From: Synechococcus sp. CCY 9618
GTDB lineage: Bacteria > Cyanobacteriota > Cyanobacteriia > PCC-6307 > Cyanobiaceae
Reading direction: 5' to 3'
DNA length: 38,077 nt
NCBI RefSeq assembly: GCF_019038415.1
Contig: NZ_JAFKRG010000020.1
Location: 1-38,077 of the forward strand
Part shown: positions 6,993 through 29,252 of the stretch, one piece after another
Numbering within the stretch: position 1 is the first letter of the stretch
Layout of the letters: every line of letters starts with the position of its first letter
The notes under the pieces: model-generated
What the model was told of the DNA's origin: nothing
Databases searched by the model: none
The model's input: only the letters and a program-made list of their open reading frames with translations
Translations under genes and position numbers: made by a program

Positions 6993-7034
6993 ACTATCCA
7001 TGACGGAGCCCCATCCCAATGTCTGATCCGATAC
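6993..7034 (-). promoter_or_regulatory. Putative NtcA-activated promoter of amt
   Basis: On the minus strand, GTATCGGATCAGAC (7034 to 7021) fits the relaxed NtcA pattern GT-N10-AC (GTA-N8-GAC). Exactly 22 nt further on lies GATAGT (6998 to 6993), a plausible -10 element. Site, 22-nt spacer, then -10 is the class-II layout described for NtcA-activated cyanobacterial promoters. One half-site base differs from the GTA-N8-TAC ideal. The ntcA gene in this window has a related site with the same spacing. Confidence 0.6.
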
Positions 7035-26218: not shown

Positions 26219-27462
26219 GGCCGTGGCGCGCGGGGGGCCGGTTCGTTGCGCACCCAGCGCAGCTCCACGCCGATCGGGTCCGGCGTGTCGGCGGCCTGGG
26301 TCGCCACGGCCTCGAGGTTGGCGCTGACGCCGGCGGGTCGGTCGCCGAGCTCGCGGGCCAGGGCCGTGAGGCTGGCGGCATCGAACTGGAGGCCGTTGGC
26401 CAGGGTCCCCTGGCGCTGGACCTTGGCGTAGGCGGCGGCCAGCAGCAGGTTGAGGCGGCTGCGCACGGCGGCCGGATCACGGACGTCCGGCTCCAGGGCG
26501 GTGCGGGCCAGCACCTCCCCCTGCTCGACCACCTGGCGGTTGGGGCGCAGGTCCGGGAAGGCCAGCACCTGGGCCTCGCCCCGCAGCACGTTGGCGGCGG
26601 AGCGGATGCTGACCACCCAGGTGCCCGGGCTGCCGAGCAGGGATTCCAGCCGGGTGATGTCGCTGCGGGGCACCAGCAGGATCTGGCGGCTGGGGGGCTC
26701 GCCGGGCAGCAGTTGCTGGAAGGCGGCGCGGTTGGCCTCCTGCAGCAGGGCATCGATCACCTGCCGGGCCTGGCCGGGGCGCTGCAGCTGCACCTTGGCG
26801 GTGGCCAGGGGCTGGCCGCTGGCGATCACCACGTCGCCCCGGCGCAGGGCGATCACGTTCTTCTCGAGATCCTCCAGTTCCTTTTCGCCGGCGCTGATGC
26901 GGCGCCGCACGCTGGCCAGCTCGTTCTCGGTGCGGCGGATCTCCGCGTCGCGGCCCTTCACCTCCTTCGTGAGCCGGTCCCGTTCCGCCTCCAGGCGGCG
27001 GCGCTGGGCCTGCAGAGGCTGCAGCTCCCGGCGCAGGGTCTCCACCTGTCGCTCGGCCTCCAGCAGCTGGTCCCGGGCCCGGCGCTGGCTGGCCAGGGCC
27101 TGGTCACGCCGGCGTTCGGCGGTGGTCAGATCCAGCCGGCTGCGTTCCAGTTCACCGCGGGTGCGCCCCAGTTCCGCCTGGTTGCGCTGCAGAGCGATGC
27201 GGCTCTGCTGCAGGCGTTCCTGGATCTGGTCGAGCTGGAAGAGCCCCACCCGCAGCCGTTCGCTCACCAGAAGCATCAGCCCGAGCGACACGGCGCTGAT
27301 CAGGCTGCCGGTGAGCACGGTGATCACCACAGCCGTGTTGCGGGGCCGGAGGTTGAAGAGGCTGAGGCGTGCCTTGCCCACCCGGCTGCCGAGCCGGTCC
27401 CCCAGGGTGGAGAGCACTCCGCCGAGCACCAGCAGCGCCAGGATCAGCAGCCAGCCCGACAC
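26215..27462 (-). CDS. DUF3084 membrane-anchored coiled-coil protein
   Basis: A 415-residue cyanobacterial protein. It has two N-terminal TM helices (about 4-18 and 45-68) around a basic GSRVGKARLSLFNLRPRN loop, then a long heptad-rich coiled coil (about 75-205, Arg/Glu/Gln-rich). A globular C-terminal domain follows, with LLVPRSDITRLESLLG and AFPDLRPNRQVVEQGE. This is the standard DUF3084 layout; function is unknown. It lies 74 bp downstream of ntcA and is coupled to the YqgF-like gene, so it may be in the ntcA transcript. Confidence 0.82.
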   Translation of the reverse strand: MSGWLLILALLVLGGVLSTLGDRLGSRVGKARLSLFNLRPRNTAVVITVLTGSLISAVSLGLMLLVSERLRVGLFQLDQIQERLQQSRIALQRNQAELGRTRGELERSRLDLTTAERRRDQALASQRRARDQLLEAERQVETLRRELQPLQAQRRRLEAERDRLTKEVKGRDAEIRRTENELASVRRRISAGEKELEDLEKNVIALRRGDVVIASGQPLATAKVQLQRPGQARQVIDALLQEANRAAFQQLLPGEPPSRQILLVPRSDITRLESLLGSPGTWVVSIRSAANVLRGEAQVLAFPDLRPNRQVVEQGEVLARTALEPDVRDPAAVRSRLNLLLAAAYAKVQRQGTLANGLQFDAASLTALARELGDRPAGVSANLEAVATQAADTPDPIGVELRWVRNEPAPRAPRP

Positions 27463-27536
27463 CTCTGCGCCTCGGTTTCGCGGTGCAACAAGTATCCCTG
27501 GCGGCGGCGGCAGGCCCTTCGCCAGGGGCCGGCCGC

Positions 27537-28277
27537 TCAGCTGAACCGCTTGGCCAGGGCAATGGGATCGAAGACGGTGATCTTCTTGCGGTCGATCTGC
27601 ACCAGTCCGTCGTTGCGCAGATCGCCCAGCAGGCGGGTGATCGTCACCCGGGTGGAGCCGATGGCCTCGGCGATGGCCTGGTGGGAAAGGCGCAGGTCGA
27701 TGGTGATCCCCTCGCTGCCGGGCACGCCGAAATCGCGACAGAGCACCAGCAGGAAACTTACCAGCCGGGAGGACATGTCCCGGTGGGTGAGGGTTTCGAT
27801 CATGGTTTCGGTCTGGAGGATGCGGGAGGAGAGGCCCTGGAGGAGCAGCAGCCCGACGCTGGCGTCCTGCTCGATGGCCCGCCGCACCGAGGTGGCCGGG
27901 GCCGTGACCATCTCCACCCGGGTGAAGGCGATGGCGTGATAGAAGCGGTCGGAGCGCTGGCCGGTGAGCAGGGACAGCACGCCGAAGAGGCTGTTCTCCC
28001 GCAGCAGGGCGACGGTGATCTCCTCACCGGATTCATACACCCGGGACAGCCGCACGGCGCCGCGGCGCAGCAGATAGACCCGCTCGGCCGGATCGCCGGG
28101 GAAGAAGATCGTCTTGCCCCGTTCAATGGTTTCGACGCTGCTGCCCGACAGCCCCCGGATCACTTCGAGAAGGGTGGTGGAGTTCGATCCGGACGCACCC
28201 ATGGAAGTCACCGAACCGGGTGACCCGCTGGATGGACTGTTGGGGTAGCGACTGAAGCCACGCGTGGCGGCGACCAT
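27537..28277 (-). CDS. ntcA: Global nitrogen regulator NtcA
   Basis: A 246-residue CRP/FNR-family activator that senses 2-oxoglutarate and PipX. The effector domain has [39 protein letters not shown] and [20 protein letters not shown] (seen in order). The C-terminal HTH is [21 protein letters not shown] (about 198-218). The frame is open upstream with ATGs at 28316, 28277 and 28202. The NtcA-type promoter puts the transcript start near 28293, which excludes 28316, and 28277 gives an N-terminus ([10 protein letters not shown]) like picocyanobacterial NtcA. No strong ribosome site is seen. It is flanked by rph upstream and DUF3084 downstream. Confidence 0.96.
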
Positions 28278-28299
28278 CGAGGCGTGGCGAATGGTAAGG

Positions 28300-28341
28300 A
28301 ACCTATGGATCGCCATGGGCGAACCATGTAGCGAATCACAC
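28300..28341 (-). promoter_or_regulatory. Putative NtcA autoregulatory promoter of ntcA
   Basis: On the minus strand, GTGTGATTCGCTAC (28341 to 28328) fits GT-N10-AC (GTG-N8-TAC). After exactly 22 nt comes TAGGTT (28305 to 28300), a TAN3T -10 element. This is the class-II NtcA promoter geometry, and autoregulation of ntcA is known in other cyanobacteria. It lies wholly in the rph-ntcA gap. Confidence 0.7.
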
Positions 28342-28362
28342 CCTTTGTAGGGTCTCGCCGGT

Positions 28363-29094
28363 TTACGGAGCGGGTGCCAGCGCCAGGGCCTGCCGCTGGG
28401 CCTCCTGGAGGGCCCGCAGCCCGGGCTCCGCCAGATCCAGCAGGGCATCGAGGCGGGCGCGGGGGAAGGGGGCACCCTCGGCGGTGCCCTGGATCTCCAG
28501 CAGCCGTCCCTGCTCGTCCATCACCACGTTGAGGTCCACGTCGGCACGGGAATCCTCGGAATAGTCCAGATCCAGCAGGGCCTCGCCATCCACCAGCCCC
28601 ACCGACACCGCCGCCACCTGCTGGCGCAGGGGCGAGGCGGCCAGCACCCCGCGGTTCTGGAGGCGCTGCAGGGCGGCCGCCAGGGCGATCCAGGCGCCGG
28701 TGATCGAGGCGGTGCGGGTGCCGGCATCGGCCTGGAGCACGTCACAGTCGACCAGCAGGGTGCGTTCGCCGAGGGCGTCGAGATCCAGGGCGGCCCGCAG
28801 GCTGCGGCCGATGAGGCGCTGGATCTCCTGGGTGCGGCCGGAGAGCTTCATCAGCTCCCGCCCCTGGCGGGATGGGGTGGAAGCGGGCAGCAGGCGGTAC
28901 TCGGCGCTGAGCCAGCCGCTGCCCGATCCCCGCCGCCAGCGGGGCACCTCCTCCTCAAGGCAGACGCTGCACAGCACCCGGGTACGGCCGGCCTCGAAGG
29001 TGACCGAGCTGAGGGCGAAACCCATGGGATCCCAGTGCACCTGCACGGGGCGCAGGTCCTCGGCGCTGCGGCCGTCGTTGCGGGCTGGAGTCAC
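28363..29094 (-). CDS. rph: Ribonuclease PH
   Basis: A 243-residue phosphorolytic 3'-5' exoribonuclease that trims tRNA 3' ends. Motifs are [15 protein letters not shown] at the N-terminus, [55 protein letters not shown] and the active-site [45 protein letters not shown]-type sequence closes the fold. The GTG at 29094 is chosen because it precedes TPARNDGR by the usual margin and gives the standard length. The frame continues upstream without homology. It is 85 bp from ntcA. Confidence 0.95.
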
Positions 29095-29252
29095 GGGGCC
29101 GGGGCGGGGAAACGGCAGCGTAGGTGTCGCCGCTGGTACGCCTGTTTCCACTACCGATGGTGTGTCCAGCTGGCGATGGCCGCTACATTCGGGAGGTGAA
29201 GGGCTGGGGCGTTCCCCCCGACCCCTCCGCCCACCGCTTCCATGGGGTGTCC

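Follow-up and report, generated by a model that had tools for sequence, protein, structure and literature searches.

Does NtcA, the master nitrogen regulator, control the expression of its own gene in Synechococcus sp. CCY 9618? The question arises from the sequence that precedes ntcA in the 38,077-nucleotide stretch of DNA that was analysed as a whole and is called the window below. The ntcA gene lies on the minus strand (27537..28277, stop codon included; ATG at 28277) and encodes a protein of 246 aa. This protein is a full-length NtcA equivalog, with 375.4 bits against TIGR03697 (cut-off 244.95), and the complete profile (positions 1-193 of 193) covers its residues 54-246. An N-terminus of the MVxAxxGFSR type is seen in most of the genus genomes compared. 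Furthermore, residues 34-246 align to the solved structure of a global nitrogen regulator (2xgx), which we take to be the S. elongatus protein, and the DNA-binding helix is nearly identical. The genome also carries a gene for PipX (110 bits) and four matches to PII-family proteins, the best one reaching 108 bits. The same-strand upstream neighbour of ntcA is rph, encoding ribonuclease PH (28361..29136, minus strand, start putative; TIGR01966, 328 bits).

The gap between the rph stop codon TAA (28363..28361) and the ntcA ATG, two genes of the minus strand separated by 83 nt, contains an element that is very probably a canonical class II (CRP-type) NtcA-activated promoter of ntcA, i.e. a device for positive autoregulation gated by 2-oxoglutarate, as judged from sequence comparison. 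Read on the minus strand, it begins with a predicted NtcA-type operator, GTGTGATTCGCTAC (GTG-N8-TAC, 28341..28328), whose distal half is GTG and whose promoter-proximal half is GCTAC. The operator is followed by a spacer (28327..28306) and by the -10 box TAGGTT (28305..28300), which has the form TAN3T and lies exactly 22 nt from the operator. When re-read in the window, the letters, strand, 22-nt spacing and coordinates that the first-pass annotation had given for this element in the rph-ntcA gap were all found to be correct. In the available portions of PMC3898017 and PMC9430850, canonical NtcA-activated promoters are described as a GTAN8TAC site centred near -41.5 or -40.5 together with a TAN3T -10 box. 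This geometry places the predicted transcription start at position 28293 of the minus strand, 41.5 nt from the operator centre and 7 nt past the -10 box. The TAN3T box expected about 22 nt downstream of the site in a class II promoter is provided by TAGGTT, and a scan of 27400-29200 for TTGACA-type sigma-70 promoters gave no hit. Compared with GTAN8TAC, the operator has the GTN10AC core and T12 but lacks A3: its distal half departs from the consensus because position 3 is a G instead of an A. According to the accessible text of PMC3898017, one group of sites from an Anabaena ChIP analysis shows a highly conserved GTN10AC with some prevalence of A3/T12, and the list of putative NtcA sites of Synechococcus WH7803 includes similar deviations from the consensus in the part of PMC9430850 that was available.

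The conclusion of autoregulation results from the conservation of this layout in relatives. NtcA relatives were gathered twice, as the best 80 named loci (L numbers) and as 119 genomes (G numbers); these sets overlap in part and their counts are not to be added. Moreover, the counts given below come from genomes that share ancestry and do not represent independent events. In the genus part of the 119-genome set, G001, which lacks a full ntcA match, and G005, whose match begins at residue 115, were not judged. Of the genomes judged, 40/40 of the genus and 29/31 of the family have GTN9TAC-N22-TAN3T in front of ntcA, and the two other family genomes keep the layout with a spacer of 21 nt (G065) or 23 nt (G048). 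The layout itself is therefore found in 71/71 genomes judged, of which 69 have the exact 22-nt spacing. This bears on the conservation of the motif upstream of ntcA in close strains, one of the two points on which the first-pass annotation had let its reading of ntcA autoregulation stand or fall, and the reading is supported. In shuffled upstream stretches, the mean number of genomes with the layout was 0.0 for the genus and 0.12 for the family. With spacers of 14 to 30 nt allowed after the GTN9TAC core, none but 22 occurred in more than one genome, in the genus set or in the family set. Among the best 80 named loci listed, 75 have the layout at 22 nt; the exceptions are L033, in which AAC replaces TAC at 22 nt, and L012, L061 and L066, with 23 nt, and L073 has only 40 nt of upstream sequence. 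The conservation in front of the same gene in related genomes that is expected of a class II promoter is thus observed.

The bases that are kept within the element were identified in an alignment of 30 of the 32 genera, from which genomes with 21- or 23-nt spacers were excluded. The alignment pattern itself fixes five operator positions, G1, T2, T12, A13 and C14, as well as three letters of the -10 box, T, A and T. At the free positions, conservation is complete for G10 and for A15, with which the spacer starts, both over the 30 genera and over the 40 genus genomes, and the T of the TCC that precedes the -10 box is found in 29/30 genera. For the free operator positions, the mean is 0.94 bits per base in the 30 genera and 1.30 in the genus, against 0.55 and 1.04 for the 22-nt spacer, and 0.39 and 0.44 (genera) or 0.75 and 0.71 (genus) for the two flanks. 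Position 3 of the operator is a G in 38/40 genus genomes and an A in 1/40, and across the 30 aligned genera it is C in 14, G in 8, T in 6 and A in 2. Therefore, the promoter-proximal half of the ntcA operator is the better kept one.

Promoters of the same type precede glnA in the genus. GlnA proteins above the family cut-off (TIGR00653) were found in 25 genus genomes, two of which (L142, 108 nt; L144, 45 nt) have too short an upstream sequence. All 23 loci with enough sequence have GTN9TAC followed by TAN3T, with a distal half that is loose as in ntcA. The spacer is 23 nt in 14 of them and 22 nt in nine, whereas that of ntcA is 22 nt in 40/40 genus genomes. These 23/23 loci therefore indicate that nitrogen genes here generally have this type of promoter, ntcA being the more uniform. 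The idea that a loose position 3 is special to ntcA was only partly borne out: position 3 of the glnA sites is T in 9, A in 7, G in 4 and C in 3, so that glnA is loose too (A in 7/23), and A3 is rarer at ntcA (1/40) than at glnA (7/23), kinship being uncorrected in this comparison. As for glutamine synthetases themselves, 25/42 genus genomes have a type I enzyme above the TIGR00653 cut-off of 429; the genome of the window (best match 319 bits) and 16 others fall below it. GSIII (PF12437) is found in 39/42 genus genomes, including that of the window, and the subclade of the window may rely on GSIII.

The site might be used mainly by another regulator of the CRP/FNR family (CRP-like or PtrA-like), in which case NtcA would not control its own gene. 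The genome gives some room for this, since a search with NtcA returned four matches, i.e. three besides NtcA itself, which are presumably other CRP/FNR-type regulators and might in principle act at a GTN10AC site. Furthermore, the ntcA site starts with GTGTGA, which resembles the half-site consensus of CRP. However, the half that is kept, GCTAC(A), is of the NtcA type, and the CRP-like resemblance involves position 3, which varies across the 30 genera. The glnA promoters of the genus, with GTN9TAC and TAN3T at 22 or 23 nt in all loci judged, also argue against another main user, and we consider this alternative very unlikely.

Alternatively, ntcA could be expressed by read-through from rph only, the element being a leftover or being constrained for some other reason. 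The proximity of rph on the same strand and the lack of any terminator-like site found at 27400-29200 would allow such read-through. However, the presence of the element does not follow that of rph. Among the best 80 named loci, 75 have at least 1000 nt of upstream sequence and were judged for rph (the five others being too short): rph lies upstream in 30/75 of these listed loci, with the element at 22 nt in 30/30, and it was not detected in 45/75, with the element in 45/45 (42 at 22 nt and three at 23 nt). Since the element is kept with or without a detected rph, it belongs to ntcA. Read-through could add a basal level of expression but leaves the fixed 22-nt layout unexplained, and as the sole source of ntcA mRNA it is highly improbable. 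A coding constraint was also considered as the source of conservation and rejected. In 62/71 genomes, 20-24 nt separate the -10 box from the ntcA start codon, with shifts of single bases, and this favours a short untranslated leader and disfavours coding constraint. The rarity of the upstream in-frame ATG at 28316, found in 3/40 genus genomes including that of the window, is a second ground for this rejection.

Within the window, the operator taken alone proves nothing, since the 14-mer GTRN8TAC occurs five times for 3.7 expected. The complete layout, GTN9TAC-N22-TAN3T, occurs once when both strands are searched, and 200 dinucleotide shuffles did not produce it. A second site had been put forward by the first-pass annotation as a partner, namely the candidate NtcA site of amt, GTATCGGATCAGAC (7034..7021, minus strand), upstream of a PF00909 transporter gene; the reverse complement of the ntcA site matches it at 11 of 14 positions, and the pair was held to be stronger than either site alone. 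The arithmetic of this match is right but the pair is not independent support, as chance gives such matches in the window: with at most three mismatches, there are three matches (the site itself being one of them) against 1.73 expected. A closer match (12/14) lies at 1321-1334, within the purH reading frame. We therefore rejected the amt pair as independent evidence, and autoregulation is concluded from conservation, not from this pair. A chance resemblance, to which the near-chance frequencies of the 14-mer and of the 11/14 amt match in the window would point, is refuted by a layout that all genus and family genomes judged possess and that shuffled sequences practically never produce, which leaves it a negligible probability.

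The amt site has its own conservation. It is found at the same place in 16/25 amt orthologues compared, this genome counted. In these 16, the hexamer 22 nt downstream (23 nt in G032) is GATAGT, as in the window, or in one case GATATT; GATAGT is not of the TAN3T form. Of the nine remaining orthologues, eight have no site at that place and one (L123) has only 340 nt of upstream sequence, and seven of the nine have GTAN9AC somewhere else upstream. Compared with the ntcA site of the same genome, the amt sites of the 16 genomes match at 7 to 11 of 14 positions on the reversed strand and at 5 to 8 of 14 directly. From these matches, we read the amt site as flipped, with its strong half apparently promoter-distal, that of the ntcA site being promoter-proximal. 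The amt site can be viewed as a candidate NtcA site in its own right, giving weak support to the ntcA site.

If the element is the NtcA-activated promoter of ntcA, the steps that we infer are as follows. Nitrogen shortage would raise 2-oxoglutarate, which would activate the NtcA dimer, with PipX as a likely coactivator. The dimer would bind at 28341-28328, where it would replace a -35 element and contact RNA polymerase. The polymerase would open the DNA at TAGGTT and begin transcription near 28293, so that the leader of the ntcA mRNA would measure about 16 nt. The resulting rise in NtcA would close a 2-oxoglutarate-gated positive feedback loop. Stronger binding of NtcA in the presence of 2-oxoglutarate has been seen for the glnA promoter of Prochlorococcus, according to the available part of PMC5767323.

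Self-activated ntcA promoters are of a kind that is already known in related cyanobacteria, and what is described here is not a new system. In the accessible part of PMC9430850, the list of NtcA sites of Synechococcus WH7803 gives that of ntcA as the only one experimentally determined, and ammonium is a negative regulator of ntcA in this strain (Lindell 1998, cited in the part of PMC4923085 that was available). The WH7803 ntcA promoter thus also has an NtcA-type site upstream of ntcA, a likeness that holds by description and not by letters. In Anabaena PCC 7120, the available text of PMC3898017 reports that NtcA acts on the ntcA promoter and that binding is affected by mutations in the two NtcA sites which this promoter contains; its layout is non-canonical, whereas the promoter described here has one canonical site. 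Our literature search, which was mostly not Cyanobium-specific and ran outside subscription papers, returned no description of this particular ntcA promoter.

In the class outside the family (seven genomes, G097, G101, G103, G105, G106, G110 and G112, being left out of the upstream comparison), GTAN8TAC occurs near ntcA in 21/39 genomes, against a shuffle mean of 1.9 and a largest value of 5 in 50 shuffles. The distance from GTN9TAC to TAN3T is 22 nt in 2/39 of them, 23 nt in four and 18 nt in six, the others being scattered. Self-regulation of ntcA therefore looks widespread, with a spacing that is not fixed, and the layout locked at 22 nt characterizes the family. One class-level genome (G082) resembles that of the window in having GTAGCGATTGCTAC-N22-TACGGT upstream of ntcA, but its site is a perfect GTAN8TAC, whereas the distal half is GTG here. 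The 18-nt layout (G095, G109, G102, G115, G085 and G111) is commoner than those with neighbouring spacers and possibly represents a different NtcA promoter layout.

For Cyanobium-like picocyanobacteria, these data give a firm comparative basis to the autoregulation of NtcA, with one promoter layout retained throughout the genus and family genomes studied. Since ntcA expression has been used as an indicator of nitrogen status (as given by the title of a reference in the available part of PMC9430850), a promoter that is uniform in the family helps its interpretation. Moreover, the ntcA operator of the family appears lopsided and frozen, given its kept GCTACA half, its distal half that avoids A3 and its spacing locked at 22 nt. 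Speculatively, such an operator could give picocyanobacteria a peculiar autoregulatory loop of low affinity and strong ligand dependence, a proposal that we regard as rather doubtful.

A second conserved block lies at 29130-29185 of the window, between a cobO-like gene of the plus strand and rph on the minus strand. It includes CCGCTACATTC on the plus strand, with TACATT as a possible -10 box, and a 16-bp palindrome near ACACYATCCNTRGTGT, whose form in the window is ACACCATCGGTAGTGG (29163..29148, minus strand) and in some Prochlorococcus ACACTGCATATAGTGT. Upstream of ntcA, the best match to ACACYATCCRTRGTGT reaches at least 13/16 in 46 of the best 80 named loci, as a raw count. In four loci (L053, L057, L058 and L062), in which rph was not detected (only 63 nt of upstream sequence being available for L062), the palindrome block is found a short way upstream of the ntcA operator, and two regulatory blocks adjoin. 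This palindrome is reminiscent of an NrdR box. The same window carries dcd and a ThyX gene, i.e. deoxynucleotide genes are found near the palindrome.
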